NCBI RefSeq assembly: GCF_025210605.1
Contig: NZ_JAOARI010000024.1
Span: forward strand, 62,001 to 126,000
Reading direction: 5' to 3'
Length of the DNA: 64,000 bases
From: Halodesulfovibrio sp.
GTDB lineage: Bacteria; Desulfobacterota; Desulfovibrionia; Desulfovibrionales; Desulfovibrionaceae
Each line of letters opens with the position of its first letter. The stretch's first letter is position 1. The notes under the pieces were generated by a model. The model did no database searches. It was not told the origin of the DNA and saw nothing but the letters and a program-made list of their open reading frames with translations. Shown in pieces: positions 29,790 to 42,545 of the stretch. The translations under genes and the position numbers were made by a program.

Positions 29790-31010
29790 TCAAAACGCTA
29801 GCAACGTGCCTGAATCGTCAAAACCGAGTTGGCGTGCGTTGTCTGGGAAAATGGTTGCACCAGCTTTTTTTAGATCATCAAATACGGGGGCGGTTGCCCA
29901 GAAATGTTGTAAAGATAATGTGTTTGTGATGCGAACGGCTCTGATATTTGACGGAGCTTTTGCAAGTGCAGCATCTATAACAACTTTATCTGTCGGCAGA
30001 GTGATAGGAAGCCGCCCGCTAGCCCATACGCCGGTGGTAAGGGAATTTGCATACGTTGCGGCGGGGTCAATACTATCTGCGAGTCGTTGAGGAATAAGGT
30101 CTGCCATGCCGATACCGTGGGCATTTCCTTGTGATTCTGGAGTAAGATTAAGTACCACGAGTGTTTTGTAATCAGGCTTTCGTTCGCCTGCCATGCGCCG
30201 CCATGCTCCGATTACGTTGGTGTCCATTCCTGTTCCGCTAATATTTTTCCCCATTTCATCGATGATAAGCAAATCGAGCGAATCCAAAGGAATACGTGGA
30301 AGGATTGCTGCGGAAACAGCAAGCAGTGAGGAGTCTGTTTTTGCTATGTCGTTCTGTGTGCAAAGTTTGATGCTATGCAGTTTTTCCACGGCATTTTCTA
30401 CTACAGCAAGCCCTGCCAGAATGGTAATGTGCTCTTGTATTCGCAGTGCGGCTGGCTTGATGACTTTTTCTAAAGGGAAATTGTGCAGATTATCAGCACC
30501 GCGTGGTTTTCCTAGTCCAATAGCAAGCATTTTGCACAGACCGGATTCAACTTCTCCGTGAAAGAGTGTGTGAGGTTTTACGCGATTCATGACAAAAATA
30601 TAGTCTGCTTCAATGGCGTCCTTTGCGACAAAGACTTCTGCGCCTTCTTCTATATGCCCTAAGCTGACTGTTTCGATAGATGAGACAATCGGGCAGCCAG
30701 TCGACTCTTCTGTAATGCCTAACTTAGCAAGAATAGCGGTTTGTCCTTCCGCAGTAGAACCGCCGTGTGATCCCATGGCGGGGATGATAAAGGGGCGAAG
30801 CCCAAGTGCGGTAAGATTGCGTACTACAGTTTGAACCAGTGGCACTATGCGGTCAATACCACGCGAGCCTACGGTAATACCGACAGAGGCATTCGGCTTT
30901 ATTGCGGAGCTGTCAAAAGAAGCAAAGACCGCGTCTACGGTCTTTGCAACATCATCAATTTGGGACGTCTCGAATTGTTGTTCGACGTCGTAGAAAATAG
31001 GGTACGTCAT
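29790..31010 (-). CDS. LarA-N (DUF2088) lactate racemase-domain protein
   Basis: 406 residues. AMGSHGGSTAEGQ and NRVKPHTLFHGEVESGLCKM are LarA-type blocks, with His residues in places where nickel-pincer-nucleotide racemases have metal and catalytic His; GKNISGTGMDTNVIGA follows. The N-terminal LarA_N domain is clear; whether the full nickel-cofactor site is intact cannot be judged by eye. It starts 10 bp after the TRAP permease gene, so it is the last gene of a TAXI-TRAP operon and probably acts on the imported hydroxy acid. If it uses a nickel-pincer cofactor it would depend on nickel supply. Confidence 0.8.
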   Translation of the reverse strand: MTYPIFYDVEQQFETSQIDDVAKTVDAVFASFDSSAIKPNASVGITVGSRGIDRIVPLVQTVVRNLTALGLRPFIIPAMGSHGGSTAEGQTAILAKLGITEESTGCPIVSSIETVSLGHIEEGAEVFVAKDAIEADYIFVMNRVKPHTLFHGEVESGLCKMLAIGLGKPRGADNLHNFPLEKVIKPAALRIQEHITILAGLAVVENAVEKLHSIKLCTQNDIAKTDSSLLAVSAAILPRIPLDSLDLLIIDEMGKNISGTGMDTNVIGAWRRMAGERKPDYKTLVVLNLTPESQGNAHGIGMADLIPQRLADSIDPAATYANSLTTGVWASGRLPITLPTDKVVIDAALAKAPSNIRAVRITNTLSLQHFWATAPVFDDLKKAGATIFPDNARQLGFDDSGTLLAF

Positions 31011-31020
31011 GAGATTCCTG

Positions 31021-33114
31021 CTACGCTGTTTCAGTCAGAATGATATCATCCAACGTCGTGTCTATATCGAATGCGTTTGTGTATTTTAGAATGGCTGTGA
31101 GAATAGCAAAGATAGTTACTCCAATCCAGCATTGAAGTTCGGGTAATGCATACAGTAGCACAGCATTACAGCCGAAAGTAAGACGGAGCAGCGGGTGCAG
31201 CCTTCGTATATAAACTCCTTCTAGCGATACCGCAGTGCAGAATAGCGCTAACAGGATAATGCCGATAGTCAACACTGTTTGCCACAGTGGACCCAAGAAC
31301 AAAATGGATGGTTCGTATACAAACATAATCGGGATAATAAAAAGCCCACTCGCCAGTTTGAAAGCATGGATGCCAGTCTGAAATGGGTCAGACTTGGCAA
31401 TTCCCGCGGCGGTGTATGCTGCAAGACAAACAGGTGGTGTTACGTTTGCTGACTGTGAATACCAGAAGATCAGCAGGTGCGCCGCAAGCAGGAATATAGT
31501 GGCGTGTTCCGGCGGAACCTGAGAGTTTATGATAGCAAATAATGCCCCCGCCGTGGTCGGGTCTGAGATCATGTCGAGACTTAATCCCATGGACTGGATG
31601 AACTTAGGTTTTACAGCCATGACATAGCGAAGTTTGATGAGGTTAACGAGAAACGGCGCACTGAGTGTCGCAAGAATGATGTATGACGCGGTTACAGGCA
31701 AGCCCATACCAAGAATGAGCGATGCGACCCCGATAAGTCCGATAGTTACAAGTAGGCTTGATCCCGCAACAGTCGAAATGAGCATTGAAAATTTAACGCC
31801 GAGGCTGACAAGAAGGACAATGCCAATGACTACGCCGGAGCAGAGCAGAATAATGGCAGTAGCCACCATGTTTTTTCCACCCAGAGCAAACGCATCAACA
31901 ACATCCATAAGCCCCATACGGTGATTTTTGGTTAGCCAGCTTGCACCGACAATGGCTGCAATAGCCCAGCATGCAGCATACGTAGGGGTGTAGCCGACAC
32001 TCATGAGTGTGATAAGCACGCCGATAGGAATAAAGAACGGCCAGCCTTCTTTAAGTACTTCAAAAAAACGCGGGATGTCCTCTTCTGCTGTTGGTTGTAG
32101 ACCTTCACTGCGGGCGCGTGAATGCACGAAGAAAATTACCCCGACGAAATATAAGATTGCCGGAATGAAAGATATGGCGACAATTTTCAGATACGAAATT
32201 TGTGTCCACTGTGCCATAACGAAAGCACCTGCACCCATAATGGGAGGCATTATTTGACCGCCGGTGCTGGCGGCGGCTTCAACTGCTGCTGCAAACTTGG
32301 GACTAAAGCCTGTTCGCTTCATCATCGGAATAGTAATTGAGCCAGTACTTACGGTGTTTGCAACAGCACTGCCGGACACTGACCCCATAAGACCACTGGA
32401 GAAAACCGCCATTTTTGCAGGTCCTCCGACACTGCGACCTACAACGGAAACGGCAAGTTTGATAATAAAATCTCCTGCACCGGATTTAACAAGAAAAGAC
32501 CCGAACAGGACGAATAGAAAAACATAGGAGGCAGAAATGGTGGCGATGCTTCCGAAAATGCCATCAGGGGCAAAGTACATACGGTATAGGACTCTAGTGA
32601 TGGTAACACCGGGGAAGTTCCAGTTGCCAGAAAGAAATTGTCCCCAGTACAGGGCGTAACTTAAAAAGAAGATAGCGAGCAGAGGAATAATTTTTCCTGC
32701 GGCACGGCGTGCAATTTCCAGCATGAGCAACAGCGTTGTGCCAGCAAAAATCATATCAAGCAGAACCATCTGTTCATTGCGGGCATGAAGCGCATCTTCA
32801 AAAAATACTAAGTACAAGCCACAGATAACGCTGAGTGCTGCCAATAGCCAATCAGCATAGGGCTTTTTATCTAAGCTTTTTGCACTAAAAGGGTAGATCA
32901 TAAATGCAAGCGGCACAAAAAACGCATAATGCAGTGCGTTGCGTTGAATCTCCGGCATAAGCCATACGGTATTGGTGAGAACATGAAATACACTTGCTGC
33001 AATACACATACAGTAAAATACGGTAGAAGGAATGCCAGTTAATGTACGTGTGCTGACCATTACCTCACCGGAATCTTCTGTCGCTTCCACTGATTTTTTT
33101 TTAAAGAACCCCAT
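31021..33114 (-). CDS. TRAP transporter fused permease, TAXI family (DctQM fusion)
   Basis: 697 residues, almost wholly hydrophobic. The first 150 residues form the small DctQ-like part, the rest the DctM-like transport domain with blocks GLMGSVSGSAVANTVSTGS, AASTGGQIMPPIMGAGAFVM and LGMGLPVTASYI. Fused 4TM-12TM permeases of this length go with TAXI-type binding proteins, here encoded upstream in the same operon. Transport is driven by an ion gradient, probably Na+. The substrate is likely an organic acid. Confidence 0.93.
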   Translation of the reverse strand: MGFFKKKSVEATEDSGEVMVSTRTLTGIPSTVFYCMCIAASVFHVLTNTVWLMPEIQRNALHYAFFVPLAFMIYPFSAKSLDKKPYADWLLAALSVICGLYLVFFEDALHARNEQMVLLDMIFAGTTLLLMLEIARRAAGKIIPLLAIFFLSYALYWGQFLSGNWNFPGVTITRVLYRMYFAPDGIFGSIATISASYVFLFVLFGSFLVKSGAGDFIIKLAVSVVGRSVGGPAKMAVFSSGLMGSVSGSAVANTVSTGSITIPMMKRTGFSPKFAAAVEAAASTGGQIMPPIMGAGAFVMAQWTQISYLKIVAISFIPAILYFVGVIFFVHSRARSEGLQPTAEEDIPRFFEVLKEGWPFFIPIGVLITLMSVGYTPTYAACWAIAAIVGASWLTKNHRMGLMDVVDAFALGGKNMVATAIILLCSGVVIGIVLLVSLGVKFSMLISTVAGSSLLVTIGLIGVASLILGMGLPVTASYIILATLSAPFLVNLIKLRYVMAVKPKFIQSMGLSLDMISDPTTAGALFAIINSQVPPEHATIFLLAAHLLIFWYSQSANVTPPVCLAAYTAAGIAKSDPFQTGIHAFKLASGLFIIPIMFVYEPSILFLGPLWQTVLTIGIILLALFCTAVSLEGVYIRRLHPLLRLTFGCNAVLLYALPELQCWIGVTIFAILTAILKYTNAFDIDTTLDDIILTETA

Positions 33115-33271
33115 ATTCCAACCTTACAGTCACTCTAATAAGTTTCAACAATGTTTTTCCGCAAAGCTGTTGCTAGCGAAGTAGTTACGAGCCAGTTGCT
33201 TTTTTATGATGAGCGGTGTTGTTTCCTATCACTATGGTATAGCTGAATTTAGAAACGACACCTCAGTGTTA

Positions 33272-33300
33272 TCCGCCGGAGTGAGAAATGCTCCGGCGGA
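33272..33300 (-). promoter_or_regulatory. Intercistronic stem-loop between TAXI binding protein and permease
   Basis: TCCGCCGGAG and CTCCGGCGGA form a 10-bp GC-rich stem with a 9-base loop, just after the binding-protein gene. Without a T-run on the minus strand it probably protects the upstream message so that the binding protein is made in excess over the permease. Confidence 0.55.
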
Positions 33301-33310
33301 TTTTGATATG

Positions 33311-34309
33311 CTATTTTGCGATAAGGCGTTCAGGAATCTCAATGCCGACTTCGCGGTAGTACTTTGCAGCACCGGGGTGCAAAGCAACAGGAAGACCGGA
33401 GAGAGCGGAATCAAGGCTCATGTTTTTGGTAGCAGAGTGTATTGTTCCGAGGAAATTGAGGTTTTCATAGATAGTCTTAGTGATTTTGTAGACTACGTCT
33501 TCTGGTAAATCTGCACGCACAGCAAGAAAGTTAGGCTGTGCGATGGTGCGAATATCTTTTTTTTGCCCCGGGTATGTGTTGGCTGGGATGATGTAGCGGT
33601 ACCAGATTGGAAAATCTTTCTGGATGACAGCAAGCTGGTCGTCGGAAAAATCAAGAACTGTTGCGTCCCCGTTACTCATAGCAAAAAGCTGGGTAATAGC
33701 TGCTGCCGGTACTCCGGCTGGAATGTTTGCACCTGCTATGCGGTTATCAAGCATAGCTTGTGTTGATGGAGTGTATCCAAGAAATTCAAGTTTGAGGTCT
33801 TTTGCATTAATGTCGAGTGCCTGCAAAAGGGCGCGACCAGAACCTTCTGTCCCACTGCCGCGTTTACCAATGGAAAAGCGGTCAGTCAGTGCTCCAATAT
33901 CAGCAATGGTTCCGGTTTTGGCGTATTTGTTCATTACTGCAAAGTGTTCAACGTTCGGCCACAGCATTGTAATTGAACGGAATGAATCTACTGGTTTTCC
34001 TTCATAGAACCCCTTGCCGCGTGAGGCTTGCAAGCCGAACAGCGATTGCAAAATAGCTAGGTGGGCTTCTTTATTATTCAGCATTTCGATGTTTTCACCA
34101 GAGCCTGCGGAGTTAATGGCTGTGGCTGTTATTCCATCATTCTTTGCAAGCTTAAGACTTACCAGTGTTCCGATTCCTACGCCTACTGGATAGTATGTAC
34201 CGCCTGTGGTGGCAGTGGCGATAATGAGCCGATTACTGTCTTGCGCTGAAGCAGGAAGCGTTGTGGTTAAAAGAATTGCAATTGCAATGAGAGAACAAAA
34301 TTTACGCAC
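33311..34309 (-). CDS. TAXI-family TRAP transporter solute-binding protein
   Basis: About 332 residues with a signal peptide ending TLPASA-QDSNRL. RLIIATATTGGTYYPVGVGIGTLVSLKL is the TAXI signature near the mature N-terminus. I choose the GTG at 34307-34309 (VRKFCSLIAI) because AAGGAG lies 7 bases upstream; the ATG two codons earlier is only one base from it. The protein is periplasmic and delivers substrate to the fused permease. It is divergent from a GntR regulator, with two overlapping palindromes between them. Confidence 0.9.
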   Translation of the reverse strand: MRKFCSLIAIAILLTTTLPASAQDSNRLIIATATTGGTYYPVGVGIGTLVSLKLAKNDGITATAINSAGSGENIEMLNNKEAHLAILQSLFGLQASRGKGFYEGKPVDSFRSITMLWPNVEHFAVMNKYAKTGTIADIGALTDRFSIGKRGSGTEGSGRALLQALDINAKDLKLEFLGYTPSTQAMLDNRIAGANIPAGVPAAAITQLFAMSNGDATVLDFSDDQLAVIQKDFPIWYRYIIPANTYPGQKKDIRTIAQPNFLAVRADLPEDVVYKITKTIYENLNFLGTIHSATKNMSLDSALSGLPVALHPGAAKYYREVGIEIPERLIAK

Positions 34310-34373
34310 AGTCATACTCCTTTTAGCAATAAAAAGTAAAAACAACAGATTGTTACCAAATAAGTGTCAGGAC

Positions 34374-35235: not shown

Positions 35236-35270
35236 AAAAGTCGAATATCTTAGGATATTCGACTTTTTCA
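35236..35270. terminator. Bidirectional terminator between gntR and ycaO
   Basis: A 14-bp perfect stem (AAAAGTCGAATATC / GATATTCGACTTTT) with a TTAG loop, flanked by A and T runs. It serves both convergent genes. Confidence 0.9.
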
Positions 35271-35283
35271 TTATTCCACGTAG

Positions 35284-36426
35284 TTAAAACGGATTTACTG
35301 AAGTTCCGGGGATAAGTGTTTTGCGAATCGAAATATCTGGCAGCTCTTGTGGTATTTCCATCGAAAGGACAGAGGGAAAACCCGCGTTGCGAATATCTTT
35401 GAATACTGCTGCAAGTTCATCTGTAATATTCATGACGCGATGTTGTGGAATACTGCCTACAGCTGTTCCTTCTGGTATTGTTTTGAAATAGCGCATCGAT
35501 GCATCAATAGCCTTTTGCGACGGTGGAGAGGCGACATCTTTCACCATGTTCTCGTTACTGCCATGTAGAAAACGTACGCGGCTTTGTGCAGCTGCTGTAA
35601 TCGCACGCAGTATTGCAACTTCTGGCGATGTATGTGCTCCATACCCCATTGAAACTGCAATATGTGGGTGGGGCGTCTTCGCATCATATAAGACTGTCCA
35701 GTAGACAGAAATAGATTCTACAGGGCATGGAATTGATAGCAGGGTAATATCAATTGATGCCGCGTAAAGTTTGCTGAGTGTGTCGGCAACGGTGCTGGTC
35801 ATAACTTCAGTAAGCGGTATCCGTCTACCGCCGCACTCTGCAAGGGTAAGTTTGCCATTTGTAAACATAGAGCAAATGGCGTGGCGCTCGATAATTTCAA
35901 AAATACCGTGGAGCATGGCTTCTTCAGGAGAGTTACCGCTCGACAAACCGATTGTAGTAAACGCTGCAAGCATAGGTTGTGTGTAATACGCACTGGATGC
36001 TGGAATCCACGATGTAGTGTGTTGTAAGAAATCATACATGGGAATCCACGGTAATTGGCGTTTTTTACTGTGATACACACCCTGATGACTTGTAGGAAAT
36101 TCTGTTGCGGCAAGTATACTGTTACCTTCGTTTTGAAGTTCCTGACAGCTTGCGATCCGCTCGTAAGGGTGTTTCTTTCCTATAGCGGAGCGTTCTACAG
36201 CTTCCATGAGTGCTGCTGTTTGAGCGGCATCTGTGGTGCAGCCTTTCCCCCACGCATTTTGGATAATTGAATTTAGCGGTGTGGCAGCAACAAATACTGG
36301 GATATCAAGTCGATCAATGTGGGTTATATTTGGGCAACAGGCGACACCTAGCGCAGGCATATGGGGCGTAATTTTTGCCAGCGTATTACGTGGGTGTCTG
36401 GTGCGTATAGTGCCTGTTGTGTACAT
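35284..36426 (-). CDS. YcaO-domain ATP-dependent cyclase/thioamide synthetase
   Basis: 380 residues of a YcaO domain. ALMEAVERSAIGKK and GLSSGNSPEEAMLHGIFEII ERHA (split here for length) carry the Glu residues that bind ATP-Mg, and AAAQSRVRFLHGSNEN is the conserved Gln-Arg block. YcaO enzymes activate a backbone amide with ATP to make azolines, thioamides or amidines. The gene lies 9 bp after a TfuA-like gene; YcaO-TfuA pairs are known to make thioamides, either on RiPP peptides or on methyl-coenzyme M reductase, which is absent in this type of organism. No precursor peptide gene was found nearby. The C-terminus ends in TLIPGTSVNPF and lacks the Pro-rich PxPxP tail of azoline-forming members. 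Confidence 0.85.
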   Translation of the reverse strand: MYTTGTIRTRHPRNTLAKITPHMPALGVACCPNITHIDRLDIPVFVAATPLNSIIQNAWGKGCTTDAAQTAALMEAVERSAIGKKHPYERIASCQELQNEGNSILAATEFPTSHQGVYHSKKRQLPWIPMYDFLQHTTSWIPASSAYYTQPMLAAFTTIGLSSGNSPEEAMLHGIFEIIERHAICSMFTNGKLTLAECGGRRIPLTEVMTSTVADTLSKLYAASIDITLLSIPCPVESISVYWTVLYDAKTPHPHIAVSMGYGAHTSPEVAILRAITAAAQSRVRFLHGSNENMVKDVASPPSQKAIDASMRYFKTIPEGTAVGSIPQHRVMNITDELAAVFKDIRNAGFPSVLSMEIPQELPDISIRKTLIPGTSVNPF

Positions 36427-36435
36427 TTGATTTCT

Positions 36436-37452
36436 CTATGACCGAGTCGCGATAACATCGCGTGCAATATCTGAAACACGTTTGTTTCGCTGTAACCAAT
36501 CCCACAGCCCAACTTCATATTCCCATATGTACCCGAAGTACGCAGGGTTCTTTGTAATAATCCAGTCATAGATGGATATGGCAGGTTCCATTTCCGGAAC
36601 AATGATTCCAGCTTTGTTCGCCCATGCTTCTATATATGTTTGCCACGGTGAACTGCTAAGATGGTGGAGTAGTGCCTCCTGCTCTAATAGCGATGCATAT
36701 TCACATTGGACAAGACCGTTGCTCAACAACCATTCTGTGCTATGAATTCGTGCTTTCTCTCGTTCAAAAATTGCTGTGCGTATAGTATGTGGACAGGTTG
36801 TGCTTGTTTGTTTCGCCCATTCCAGCGTATAAAATGTAGCGTACATTTTTGCTGAAATTTCTGCTAATGCTTCTGGCGAAGTAAATTGCAGAAAGTGATG
36901 GATGATTTCTGCCCCGTAGACAATATTACTATTCACAACACATGGGCGTAGATTGAGAGCACAACGACGCCACTTGTGATCTGTAAGGCTTGTAATAACC
37001 GTTCCGCATGCTGTGCGTTCTACCAATCTTCCAGTAGCTATTGCATAGCGTATGGCTGTAAGAGTGTCATGCAGCGTTGTTTCCGGTGTTTGTTCAGACA
37101 GTGCTGCGTATGCATCTTCTTCATCTGCAATGCGTTCAAAGAATCGCCCAACGCCTTCCATGCCAACCTGCTGAAGCTCCTTAGCTCGTATCGCTCCCAT
37201 TCCGCCTGCGCCGATGACCCGTATATGAACGCGGAGTGCATCAACAATTTCTTTGTGCCACACACACGAGTCGCCGTTTGTTTTGCAATCAATAAGTACG
37301 ATGGAGCCGACATCTTCTCGAATATTTCGCCATATATCACCTTGTCCGGCGGGAGGGTGGAATATGAATAAATCAGTATGGGCGGAAAAGCTTTTTTTGA
37401 TATGCTCTTGCGCTGTAGCTTCACCACAAAATATTACTATTTTCTTTTGCAT
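36436..37452 (-). CDS. TfuA-like protein
   Basis: About 338 residues. The TfuA core is clear in the first 150: SIVLIDC, VWHKEIVDAL, IRVIGAGGMGAIRAKEL and QVGMEGVGRFFER. The C-terminal 180 residues are a helical region of unknown role. In YcaO systems TfuA is thought to deliver or release sulfide for thioamide formation. The start is the ATG at 37450-37452, 6 bases after AAGGA; an upstream in-frame extension to 37704 overlaps another gene and has no support. It is the first gene of the pair, with YcaO directly downstream. Confidence 0.82.
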   Translation of the reverse strand: MQKKIVIFCGEATAQEHIKKSFSAHTDLFIFHPPAGQGDIWRNIREDVGSIVLIDCKTNGDSCVWHKEIVDALRVHIRVIGAGGMGAIRAKELQQVGMEGVGRFFERIADEEDAYAALSEQTPETTLHDTLTAIRYAIATGRLVERTACGTVITSLTDHKWRRCALNLRPCVVNSNIVYGAEIIHHFLQFTSPEALAEISAKMYATFYTLEWAKQTSTTCPHTIRTAIFEREKARIHSTEWLLSNGLVQCEYASLLEQEALLHHLSSSPWQTYIEAWANKAGIIVPEMEPAISIYDWIITKNPAYFGYIWEYEVGLWDWLQRNKRVSDIARDVIATRS

Positions 37453-37538
37453 GGTATTCCTTTTTACAGGTTGATAATGCCCGTGACAGGACTGCATAAG
37501 CCATGCCGGAAAATATAAATATTTTCCTACTGTTTTGA

Positions 37539-37853
37539 TTATTGCTTCGAAATAGCAGAAAGAAGTCCCGTTAGCCCGACAATAAGCAAAATAGGGATAT
37601 AAATTATGCCCCATAGTGGTTGGTAGAAAAAGGCAATAAGAATAGTAATAAGAATGAGTGCCACTTGGATGAAGACAAAGGAAGTGCGCCGTGCCGAAGC
37701 CCATGCACTAAATGATTTCCATATAAACATAGCAATCGGAATAATAAGGATTAGTGCCCACCAGTTTACACCGGGGATAACGAGTCGGACTATGAGTGCA
37801 AGCGCGACTACGATTATTGCGATAGCACTGATAACTGAACCACGGTTTTGCAT
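37539..37853 (-). CDS. Small integral membrane protein of unknown function
   Basis: 104 residues with four predicted membrane helices (about residues 7-25, 28-44, 57-74 and 78-97) and almost no loops. GAGG precedes the ATG. It lies 86 bp upstream of the TfuA gene in the same direction and could be the first gene of that operon. I do not recognise the family; it resembles small stress-related membrane proteins only in general shape. Confidence 0.65.
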   Translation of the reverse strand: MQNRGSVISAIAIIVVALALIVRLVIPGVNWWALILIIPIAMFIWKSFSAWASARRTSFVFIQVALILITILIAFFYQPLWGIIYIPILLIVGLTGLLSAISKQ

Positions 37854-38726
37854 AGCGACCTCATCTAAAAAACTTTGATTCGTATTACTCCCAGTGAGAC
37901 GTTGGTTGTACCGCACTGTCCTTTTCTGGGAGCCAAAGATTGTACCAAGTCACGACACGCGATGGCGTAGTGCAGGGGAGTGGCAAAGGCTTTGTTCTAG
38001 GTGTAACGGGAGCATCGTGTGTTGTCTTTAAGGGGTTGCTTGGTACGTTGTAGTGAAAGGTTAACAGTACACATCTTTTACTTTCACTTCGTTGATTAAT
38101 AGTTAAGCTTCATTATGTTGCGAACAGTATGCATATTATTTCTGAGTAATTGTGAGTAGGGGAGCTAGAGATATTGAATAGTCTGCTTTATTAAGGGGTA
38201 ATTTTAGCTGATATTGTAGAAGCGCCACCTTTGTGGGCAATAGATAGAATAGAAAACTAGTACTGGAAGAGAGCTGATTGTATAAAAAGATTATAATGCC
38301 ATAGGGTTTCGAAAACTATCTTATGATTGTTCTTTAATATTAGCATGTTGCTTTTGTTTAATGCTAAGTGTGTTTTTATTTCGTAAAAAATAACACTTGG
38401 TTGGCAGTTATTTTGCATTGGAAATTGTATAGCACCGTGTATTCATGCAGCGTTTTCTATTTTGAATACTAGGCTGTGTAATTACATTGTAAATTTTTGT
38501 TGCGGTTATTTTTTCTTTCTTACTGCGTTGTCTGTAAAAAATGTGTTTTACCATGTATTTTACTTTGATTTTGAGAAGAAAAAGCTGCCTAGTATTCCTC
38601 ACATACCAATTGAGAACGCGCCTTAGGATAGTCTATCCGTAAGTATGCGGCGGTGAATAGTCGGTAGAAATTTAGCAATAAGTATAACGGTGTATAGGTA
38701 GTTGAAAAACCGACGAGGGTTGATGA
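37854..38726. other. Long AT-rich intergenic region
   Basis: About 870 bases without a convincing gene; I searched it for a short RiPP precursor near the YcaO/TfuA pair and found none with a good ribosome-binding site. It contains an AT-rich hairpin near 38368-38398 and a strong sigma-54 promoter match at 38401-38417. Confidence 0.5.
38401..38417 (+). promoter_or_regulatory. Sigma-54 promoter
   Basis: TTGGCAGTTATTTTGCA matches the -24/-12 consensus with GG and GC separated by exactly ten bases and TTGCA at -12. It is preceded by a hairpin-forming inverted repeat (AAGTGT...ACACTT near 38368-38398). The next gene on this strand begins 310 bases further on, so it drives either a long leader or a small RNA. 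Confidence 0.6.
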
Positions 38727-39053
38727 ATGTTTATTGATCGCAAGCTTGAGTGCCGGATTTTGGCTTGTGCGACAACTTCTACAAAAGGCTTTGTACATAT
38801 TTTTGATGCTTGGGCGGTTGTAAAAAAAAAGCGCCCAGACATGCAGGAAGATAAATTTTTAGAACATATTAAGAGGCTTTGCGAATTAGAGTATATTGAT
38901 TGTCCAGAGTGCATGTCTGAGGCTACTGTACGGCAGCAGCTGAGCGTAGCAGATGCAATACAATATACGGTTACCCAAAGTGGGAAAGAGTATTTGCAAG
39001 CAATGGTAGATAGTGATTTATTTGAATTTGAGGAAAAGATAGATTGTATTTAG
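38727..39053 (+). CDS. Hypothetical 108-residue protein, possible winged-helix
   Basis: No family recognised. The sequence is mixed alpha/beta and ends acidic (DLFEFEEKID). EDKFLEHIKRLCELEYIDCPE followed by YTVTQSGKEYLQAM has the look of a winged-helix domain: a recognition-like helix followed by a beta wing and the T-x-x-G-K-E-Y-L motif common in PadR/MarR-like proteins. Three Cys are scattered. GAGGG precedes the ATG by 4 bases. It stands alone behind a sigma-54-like promoter. Confidence 0.65.
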   Translation: MFIDRKLECRILACATTSTKGFVHIFDAWAVVKKKRPDMQEDKFLEHIKRLCELEYIDCPECMSEATVRQQLSVADAIQYTVTQSGKEYLQAMVDSDLFEFEEKIDCI

Positions 39054-39121
39054 TGCGTATATGTAGCCGGATTGAGAACAACCCATGCGGGGTAATGAGC
39101 ATGCCGTTAGTTTGTATTTAC

Positions 39122-39179
39122 TGCAAATAAAGTTGGCGGGTAGGCGAAGCAATATAAAGGCTTGCCAACTTTGTTTGCA
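39122..39179. other. Large stem-loop downstream of the 108-residue protein gene
   Basis: TGCAAA and AAAGTTGGC (39122-39137) pair with GCCAACTTT and TTTGCA (39164-39179) across one bulge pair, a 15-bp stem with a 26-base apical part that can itself fold (AAGC/GCTT). It is not followed by T, so it is not a simple terminator. It could be part of a small RNA or an mRNA 3' end. Confidence 0.4.
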
Positions 39180-39245
39180 ACCGGAAGTGTCGCACAACTC
39201 TTTTGTAATTGCTTGTTGGTTAAACGAATGCAATCTATTTACCTA

Positions 39246-39278
39246 AAAAGGCGGCATCACATTGATGCCGCCTTTTCT
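39246..39278. terminator. Bidirectional terminator
   Basis: A 14-bp perfect stem (AAAAGGCGGCATCA / TGATGCCGCCTTTT) closed by CAT lies between convergent genes ending at 39053 and 39304, with A- and T-runs on both sides. Confidence 0.9.
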
Positions 39279-39303
39279 AAGTGCGTATTAGTTACCGGTG
39301 GTC

Positions 39304-39654
39304 TTATTCTTTAATAACGGCTTTAAGACTTGGTGCTGCCTTAAATGTTACTGTTTTTTCACCGTTAACGGTATCAACAGTAAATTCACCCAATCCACCT
39401 AGATCAATAGTTTGTCCATTCTTTAGTCCCATAACAATAGCAGCTTTTACGACATCAAATGCGAGGTATGCTTCATATTCGTTAGAAAATTTGTCGCTCA
39501 TTGCTGTTGTCAGGTTGTTAACGATATTCTGTGTGTATCCGCTGATCGGATCATGCTTAACGCGCTCACGTACTGCTTCAATATCAGGTGCAATAACTTG
39601 GCATTCATCAGTTGAGCAGGACATACATACGCCGGGATAATCTTGGTTAGCCAT
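39304..39654 (-). CDS. HU/IHF-like fold protein with N-terminal Cys motif
   Basis: 116 residues. The C-terminal half reads like the HU fold: AFDVVKAAIVMGLKNG, then IDLGGLGEFTV, a very short arm, and TVTFKAAPSLKAVI, matching the HU pattern of helix, GxGxF strand and F-x-x-x-x-x-LK end. The long DNA-intercalating arm of HU is missing. The N-terminus has CMSCSTDEC, which could bind a metal or form disulfides. AAAGGAGAG lies 7 bases before the ATG, predicting strong expression. A nucleoid-type or regulatory role is an inference. Confidence 0.6.
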   Translation of the reverse strand: MANQDYPGVCMSCSTDECQVIAPDIEAVRERVKHDPISGYTQNIVNNLTTAMSDKFSNEYEAYLAFDVVKAAIVMGLKNGQTIDLGGLGEFTVDTVNGEKTVTFKAAPSLKAVIKE

Positions 39655-40112: not shown

Positions 40113-42545
40113 CTAACTGTCGAGTGTCGAACGGCTTATGATTTCATCTTGTACTTCTTTGCATAATTCAACGAAGAAAGCACAATAGCCCGCGACTCTA
40201 ACAATGAGATTTCGATAGTCTTCTGGATGTTTTTGAGCTTGGATAAGCGCTTCGTTGTCAAGGTAGTTGAACTGCATTTGCGCGTTACCAAAAATAGAAG
40301 ATGCCTGTAGCAGGCTTATCAATCCAGCTTCTGCTTCGGGTGTTTCCAGTGTTCCCTTCAGGAATTTGAAGTTGTGCGACATTCCTAAGCTCATGGATTC
40401 TACATTGAGCTTCGCAACAGAGTTGATGATGGCTGTAGGACCGTTTTTATCTGCACCTTGGGAAGGACTCATGCCGTCCGAAAGTGGAGAGTTACTTATG
40501 CGACCATCTGGAGTAGCAGCAATCATTTCCCCAAGAGGAGTGTTGAATGATTGGGACAGCGTTCCATGAATGAGGTGCGCATACAATGTCTTGTGCTGAT
40601 TACTTGTTTTTTCTGTAAAGTCGATGATGTCTGCTGCAATCAGGTCTGCGTAGTCAAGGTTGTTACCGTATTTCGGAGCATTGAGGCAGTCCCGCTGTAC
40701 CTGCTCATAGCCTTGCCAGTTGGCATCAAGAGCTTTTTTGAGTTCCGGTAATGTGTATTTTTTGTCATCGAAAACAAGTTTCTTGATTGCAGCCATACTA
40801 TCAACATAGGTTCCGAGTCCGGCAAAAATAGTGCCTGGTCCACTGTAGAGTACAGCGCCACCTGCTGTAACGTCTTTACCACTCTGCATACATCCATCGA
40901 CAAAGAGCGACATATACGGTGTCGGCATAGTGTCGCGGACAAGCTTCTGGTTAATGATAGTGCCCTTAGCCGTCACATCTAAAATATGGGCTATTTGCTT
41001 TTTTACTGCTGCATCAAAATCTTTATACGTTTCAAAATGTGAGATGTCTCCAGTATCCAAGCCAACTTTACCGCCGTAAGATTGCAGCACGCCCTGATTC
41101 AGAACAAATTCAATAGCGATAGGCCACTGAGTAAAGCCGCCCGCAGTCCATTGATGCACTCGTCCGGATTTTTGTGGCTCAACGCATCCCATCAGGCAGT
41201 AGTCGCGGGCATCTTCGTAATCAAACCCTTTTCGGAGCATCATTTTGATATGCGCGTCATCAAAATGGCATGCAGGCATCCCGTTGCCGGACTTAACTAC
41301 TTCAACTACTTTTTGTAAATATTTTCGCGGTGATTGATTGTGGATTCGGCATGCAAGTGATGGCTGGTACATGCCTACTTTGCCGATGGCATCCATTACG
41401 AGGTATGTTAAATCGTTGGTACCATCGCCGCCGTGGCGCTTAACACCACCGACACAAAGGTTGATAAAAGGCATATACCCTGCAAAATATTGTGCTGTTG
41501 CGCTAGGGGTGTACCAGATCACTTCAGAGCACTTGAGAATAAAACAGCTCATCAGCTCGAAAGCTTCAGATTCGGTGAGTTGTCCAGAATCCATATCCGC
41601 AGCAAAGCAAGGGTATACATACTGATCGAAACGACCAAGCGAAGTGCTGCACTGGTTTTCTTCCAGCAAAAAGAGTGACTGGATAGTCCAGATGGCTTGC
41701 AGAGCTTCGTGAAATGTTTTTGGTGGATTAGCAGGAACAGTAGCGTTTACTTTGGCTATTTTTTCCAGTTCTTGTTTACGTGCAGGGTCTTTTTCTTTTT
41801 TTGCTAATTCCTTTGCGTAATCAGAAAGGCGATTAGCATAAATGAGGATTCCGTCACAGGTCTCAATAGCGGCTTCGTAGTGATGCTTTTTTTCAATTTC
41901 CTCAGCAGATAGGTCAGTGCGTTGACCCAATGCATCAAGATGTGCTTTTGCTTCAGCTCGTACGCCATTAATGCCTTTGGAAAACAGAATAATGTCATAC
42001 CCTGGACTTGTGTCACCTCCACCACTTGTATGGTGGTAGGTTAAATCACTTACACAGGCTTCAGCAGAAAATTCCCAAATTCTTTCTTTCCTGAAAAGCT
42101 TTTCACATGCTTCGTCAATAGATCGTCCCTCCCAGAATGGGAACAACTCTTCGCGCATGATCTTTTTATCTTCTTCGCTAATTTCATATGGGTCTTGGGC
42201 GCGGGTGCTGATAGTGTCCAGTTCATCTCGAACCCATTTCCATGCTGTGTCAGGAGAGAACGCACCAGCGCGTGGCTTGCCGCATGGATGCCCGATAATG
42301 AGTTCTCCATCTTGGATGAGCATCGGCGCAGTTTCACAAGCCCGCTTAAAACCTTTAGCGCGGCGAATATTATTAGGCAGGTCAGGGTGCTCTTTTGTGA
42401 CTTCTGTGTATGCTAATGCTCGTCCAATCGTAATGCTTGGCTTAACTTTCAGATATGCATCTTTAAGCCGTTGAATGCGTATAGGAAGTTGTGCTGTGTT
42501 GTCCGAACTAGCCTGAAATTCGTTTGTGTCGCAAGTGCAGGTCAT
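40113..42545 (-). CDS. CutC-like glycyl radical enzyme
   Basis: 810 residues, pyruvate formate-lyase superfamily. The thiyl Cys and base are in MGCVEPQKSG (Cys454, Glu456) and the glycyl radical site is RVAGY (Gly786). From memory of Desulfovibrio choline trimethylamine-lyase CutC, equivalents of its choline-site residues Tyr208 and Asp216 are present (Tyr170, Asp178 in SDLTYHHTSGGGD), as is Thr502 (Thr467), but Tyr506 is Phe471. Whole blocks such as GTIFAGLGTYVDSMAAIKKLV and NYLDNEALIQAQKHPEDYR are CutC-like. The protein would cleave choline or a related quaternary amine, or another C-N or C-S substrate. No radical-SAM activating enzyme gene or microcompartment gene is adjacent, unlike cut clusters, so it needs an activase from elsewhere. 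Confidence 0.85.
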   Translation of the reverse strand: MTCTCDTNEFQASSDNTAQLPIRIQRLKDAYLKVKPSITIGRALAYTEVTKEHPDLPNNIRRAKGFKRACETAPMLIQDGELIIGHPCGKPRAGAFSPDTAWKWVRDELDTISTRAQDPYEISEEDKKIMREELFPFWEGRSIDEACEKLFRKERIWEFSAEACVSDLTYHHTSGGGDTSPGYDIILFSKGINGVRAEAKAHLDALGQRTDLSAEEIEKKHHYEAAIETCDGILIYANRLSDYAKELAKKEKDPARKQELEKIAKVNATVPANPPKTFHEALQAIWTIQSLFLLEENQCSTSLGRFDQYVYPCFAADMDSGQLTESEAFELMSCFILKCSEVIWYTPSATAQYFAGYMPFINLCVGGVKRHGGDGTNDLTYLVMDAIGKVGMYQPSLACRIHNQSPRKYLQKVVEVVKSGNGMPACHFDDAHIKMMLRKGFDYEDARDYCLMGCVEPQKSGRVHQWTAGGFTQWPIAIEFVLNQGVLQSYGGKVGLDTGDISHFETYKDFDAAVKKQIAHILDVTAKGTIINQKLVRDTMPTPYMSLFVDGCMQSGKDVTAGGAVLYSGPGTIFAGLGTYVDSMAAIKKLVFDDKKYTLPELKKALDANWQGYEQVQRDCLNAPKYGNNLDYADLIAADIIDFTEKTSNQHKTLYAHLIHGTLSQSFNTPLGEMIAATPDGRISNSPLSDGMSPSQGADKNGPTAIINSVAKLNVESMSLGMSHNFKFLKGTLETPEAEAGLISLLQASSIFGNAQMQFNYLDNEALIQAQKHPEDYRNLIVRVAGYCAFFVELCKEVQDEIISRSTLDS

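Follow-up and report, generated by a model that had tools for sequence, protein, structure and literature searches.

A probably stripped-down or repurposed YcaO-TfuA pair in Halodesulfovibrio and the Ser-less TfuAs of sulfate reducers

Background

Pairs of YcaO and TfuA genes belong to the machinery that puts sulfur in place of oxygen in protein backbones. TfuA is credited with two roles, the liberation of sulfide from ThiS-COSH and the support of its partner YcaO in binding substrate. The closest YcaOs in our tree to the one considered here belong to the Nif11 clusters of Sinorhizobium medicae pSymA and Mycetohabitans rhizoxinica. At about 30% identity, these clusters have, like the present island, a TfuA followed by an extra domain, either separate or fused, and then by YcaO; they differ from it in a Ser-containing TfuA and in the presence of Nif11 precursors and of genes for ThiS, MoeB and a methyltransferase in the vicinity, none of which is seen here. 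The best NCBIfam models for the pair are those of the methanogen pair that acts on an McrA glycine, and the solved structure 6xp8 shares the TfuA fold; however, the scores (163 bits against 365 for TIGR03266 and 80 against 235 for NF033432) fall far below those required for McrA thioamidation, and the methanogen TfuAs sampled have a Ser where that of this strain has Gly. McrA was rejected as a target on account of these low scores, in keeping with the preliminary description of the locus, which had not expected it here. In the same superfamily, the E. coli YcaO thioamidates the ribosomal protein uL16, thereby furnishing a precedent for a housekeeping target, and YcaOs of this type have no TfuA nearby (PMC13063428); on the corresponding model, NF040716, whose cut-off is 700, the YcaO of the present pair scores 23.8 bits. 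By means of a Ser-Lys pair, TfuA reportedly hydrolyses ThiS-thiocarboxylate (PMC13185837, citing Liu et al. 2021).

Gene organization of the island

The pair lies in the near-complete, 3.38-Mb genome of a sulfate-reducing, sulfide-producing Halodesulfovibrio strain, within the 64,000-nucleotide stretch that was analysed as a whole (the window). The genes for the YcaO (380 aa; 35284..36426, minus strand) and the TfuA-like protein (338 aa; 36436..37452, minus strand) are both real, as judged from their profile matches, and are separated by the 9 bp originally reported. The TfuA reading frame as listed, of 422 aa, starts too early: given that the ortholog in the congener G402 is 338 aa long and that AGGA precedes the matching ATG, we place the start at the ATG at 37452. 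Upstream of TfuA is a gene for a membrane protein (104 aa; 37539..37853, minus strand), whose two long hydrophobic blocks agree by hydropathy with the four helices ascribed to it earlier and which matches PF20040 weakly, below the cut-off. Beyond it, in divergent orientation, lies orf9 (108 aa; 38727..39053, plus strand), with weak DUF2513-like similarity. A terminator-like hairpin (35236..35267, minus strand) is common to the ends of the YcaO gene and the GntR gene. The genes flanking the island encode a nickel-pincer cofactor-dependent isomerase (group 22) and a TAXI TRAP transporter (29790-34345), and the choline trimethylamine-lyase CutC (40113-42545).

Conserved residues of YcaO and TfuA

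The YcaO is a clear member of its superfamily (PF02624, 172 bits against a cut-off of 25.7; E 2.4e-50). Alignment with 90 comparison YcaOs, a set that includes azoline-type and 570-aa versions, indicated that it retains Glu75, Glu78, Glu177 and Glu180 as well as Lys61 and Arg181. The claim that its ATP-binding Glu residues are intact thus stands for these four of the five universal positions but fails at the fifth, codon 278 (GCA; 35593..35595, minus strand), which specifies Ala within an ALTEAAQSR motif where all 90 others have Glu. The motif-1 Ser found in 85 of the 90 is likewise replaced by Ala at codon 71 (GCA; 36214..36216, minus strand). Phylogenetic analysis placed this YcaO beside those of the TfuA clusters of Sinorhizobium and Mycetohabitans (support 98/90), upholding its description as a TfuA-associated version, albeit on a very long branch (2.95). 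The frame is intact and most other motif residues are kept. Hence, while the natural inference from the sequence is that catalysis is reduced or altered, the enzyme may still work, given its open frame and largely preserved motifs.

The TfuA-like protein scores above the cut-off on PF07812 (59.6 bits, cut-off 30), and its predicted structure aligns with 6xp8 over residues 3-221 (VIA-align Z 18.2). The TfuA fold thereby occupies approximately residues 1-221 and is followed by a conserved C-terminal part extending to residue 338, which is of low confidence in the AF2 model. Among 91 loci we recovered no clear homolog of this part; its similarity to the Sinorhizobium/Mycetohabitans domain is weak (E 0.007, probability 5%). 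A scan in which each species was represented by a single genome gave 80 TfuA loci, whose products we aligned with the solved structure 6xp8 and with TfuAs encoded on plasmids and by sulfate reducers. One Ser of the GASSMG motif is invariant in all 88 TfuAs from outside the order, but its place is taken by Gly at codon 84 of this strain (GGA; 37201..37203, minus strand) and by Lys in G402. Judging by this invariance, the Ser is presumably the nucleophile. The position of the conserved Lys is occupied by Leu according to one alignment and by K202 according to another alignment together with the model; on the latter two, K202 may well fill the Lys position in the TfuAs of both this strain and G402. 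Accordingly, a loss of both Ser and Lys in this strain, which we had entertained, was dropped upon realignment and inspection of the model.

The island across the genus

Comparison with nine congeners revealed that the island is patchily distributed. In four of them it is empty, with the flanking GntR and HU-like genes lying about 110-140 bp apart, as against about 4 kb in this strain, and orf9 is also not present at the site. In G402 the same site holds the membrane protein, TfuA and orf9 but no YcaO, with TfuA followed after about 90 bp by the GntR gene. The G402 TfuA (L010:12666-13682) is of equal length and 59% identical, the identity rising to 74% over residues 161-338 and falling to 44% over residues 1-160; the membrane protein and orf9 are 76% and 48% identical, respectively. 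Synonymous sites are near saturation between the two strains, so that the constraint can be read only roughly and only its direction, namely towards protein conservation, is safe. As nearly all relatives elsewhere carry both genes side by side, G402 is likelier to have lost YcaO than never to have had it. The persistence of the membrane protein and the C-terminal part of TfuA without YcaO suggests that these have a role of their own; a tethering of TfuA to the membrane is our guess.

The membrane protein, TfuA and YcaO form an accessory island that was probably gained by lateral transfer. A phage origin was set aside, with no relatives of the TfuA in viral contigs and none of the YcaO in phages. 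Relatives on plasmids are only about 30% identical, and plasmids yielded no homologs of the membrane protein. The island gave no match with PADLOC, and we discarded the possibility of a defence system.

The search for a substrate

In a six-frame comparison of positions 37454-39304, from TfuA to the HU-like gene, with G402, conservation was confined to the membrane protein and orf9 together with the shadows of these two, and no further conserved short ORF was found within the island. Genome-wide, the search covered Nif11-type precursors, and no Nif11 domain was found in the host or its nine congeners. The earlier statement that there is no local precursor peptide is therefore confirmed. There is also no exporter, protease or sulfur-carrier gene among the neighboring genes scanned.

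Ser-less TfuAs in sulfate reducers

A Pfam search across 348 genomes of the order recovered TfuA in just four, namely this strain, G402, G591 and G617 (the last with two copies), and a 395-genome sample of the phylum yielded no other. The invariant Ser is absent from all five of these proteins, being replaced by Gly in this strain, Lys in G402, and His, Ala and Ala in the others; the three TfuAs of G591 and G617 have also dispensed with the conserved Lys. All four genomes encode DsrA, the dissimilatory sulfite reductase, above the cut-off. The trees are compatible with a single loss for all five (AU p 0.30 and 0.21), and the Ser-less versions may thus descend from one event rather than several; since five sequences possibly represent one event, the contrast of 5/5 with 0/88 is purely descriptive. 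The G591 and G617 pairs (L066-L068) resemble that of this strain in the Ser-less TfuA and the DsrA-bearing host, but differ in that YcaO comes first, the TfuA is 450 aa long and the YcaO has Glu278. Further, G591 has eight Nif11 domains and G617 six, some adjoining the pair: Nif11 precursors adjoin L066 and a Nif11-leader protein follows L067, neither of which has a counterpart in this island.

Our literature search found no description of Ser loss in the TfuAs of sulfate reducers, although an argument from sulfide-rich cells has been made in general terms (PMC13063428). The methanogen TfuAs that we sampled retain the Ser, and two methanogens bearing thioglycine have no TfuA at all (PMC5589413). 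It is conceivable, if somewhat doubtful, that loss of the hydrolase site from TfuA is the rule among sulfidogenic bacteria, such that the Ser-less TfuA would be a general sulfide-fed, ThiS-independent partner in thioamidation, with the TfuA of the present lineage having gone beyond this to operate with the membrane protein and without thioamidation. We consider the pattern of Ser-less TfuAs in sulfate reducers to be the most useful aspect of the pair, as it can be tested: natural Ser-less TfuAs in cells with bulk sulfide would separate the two roles of TfuA without engineering and would predict which YcaO-TfuA clusters require a sulfur carrier.

Functional implications

Each protein has lost a conserved residue and no target peptide is found nearby, so that a stripped-down or repurposed pair is probable here rather than an ordinary antibiotic-peptide pathway. 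The preliminary reading of the pair as a thioamide maker survives insofar as the YcaO is TfuA-associated, but it is weakened by the lack of the invariant Ser in TfuA and of a universal Glu in YcaO, and by the sister species having TfuA with no adjoining YcaO. At the level of sequence, catalytic competence appears doubtful for both proteins. We tentatively favor, at somewhat short of an even chance, the proposal that this is an accessory island in which TfuA is a pseudo-hydrolase kept as a scaffold, the island having drifted from thioamidation and the YcaO being altered or on its way to being lost. Under this proposal, dissimilatory sulfate reduction would fill the cell with sulfide, making release from ThiS-COSH unnecessary, and we infer that the hydrolase site could decay for this reason, with Ser replaced by Gly. 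TfuA would initially stay as a docking or scaffold subunit helping YcaO to engage its substrate; with the drift of the island away from thioamidation, the constrained unit would now be TfuA, mostly its C-terminal part, together with the membrane protein, while YcaO would be altered or in the process of being lost.

Alternatively, in a modification of the preliminary reading, the pair might still synthesize thioamides by drawing on free sulfide, TfuA being a non-catalytic partner and the target a distant peptide or a cellular protein. The YcaO does have four of the five universal Glu residues, Lys61 and Arg181, an open frame and an affinity with TfuA-linked YcaOs, and the modification of uL16 in E. 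coli sets a precedent for a housekeeping target (PMC13063428). Yet with neither Glu278 nor Ser71 in the YcaO, no precursor in the island on comparison with G402, no Nif11 in the genome, and a G402 TfuA that has no adjoining YcaO, we regard this as rather unlikely. The absence of YcaO from the G402 island, the patchy presence of the island, the loss of conserved residues from both enzymes and the fast divergence of the N-terminal part of TfuA would befit a plain remnant, an acquired RiPP-type island from which the precursor and exporter have gone and which is now decaying without serving any function. This is a still weaker candidate, for all frames are intact, and 74-76% identity in the C-terminal part of TfuA and the membrane protein, at near-saturated synonymous sites, speaks of constraint. 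That the membrane protein or orf9 is itself the substrate of a thioamidated RiPP locus is very improbable: both accompany TfuA in the two species, but neither resembles a leader-core peptide, both remain in G402 without YcaO, and the neighboring genes scanned include no exporter or protease. The pair is also a warning that a YcaO-TfuA match alone, the usual hallmark in genome mining for thioamides, does not necessarily signify that a working thioamide pathway is present.

Other YcaO and TfuA loci

The single YcaO of G402 is located elsewhere in its genome and is of the 570-aa type found across the genus. YcaOs of this type (570-600 aa; L006, L017 and L018-L024) occur in nine of the ten genomes of the genus, with no TfuA alongside. 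We had considered them to be of the uL16 type, an assignment that was dropped as the two copies compared with NF040716 gave no match. The same genome as the island also contains, on contig C14, a TOMM-type cluster (L052:755-16569) that combines four tandem YcaOs, a SagC/ThiF-like protein, a nitroreductase, two methyltransferases and TonB/ExbB/ExbD/TPR genes, and has no TfuA. Although this cluster has a SagC-like partner of its own, a connection with the pair is conceivable. In G617, the YcaO-TfuA pairs are directly followed by genes for large helical proteins of 727 aa (L067:8356-10539) and 670 aa (L068:10275-12287). The former has a Nif11 leader domain at its start and, at its end, acidic and Ala/Val/Gly-rich repeats; it is possibly a giant precursor or a leader-tagged protein.
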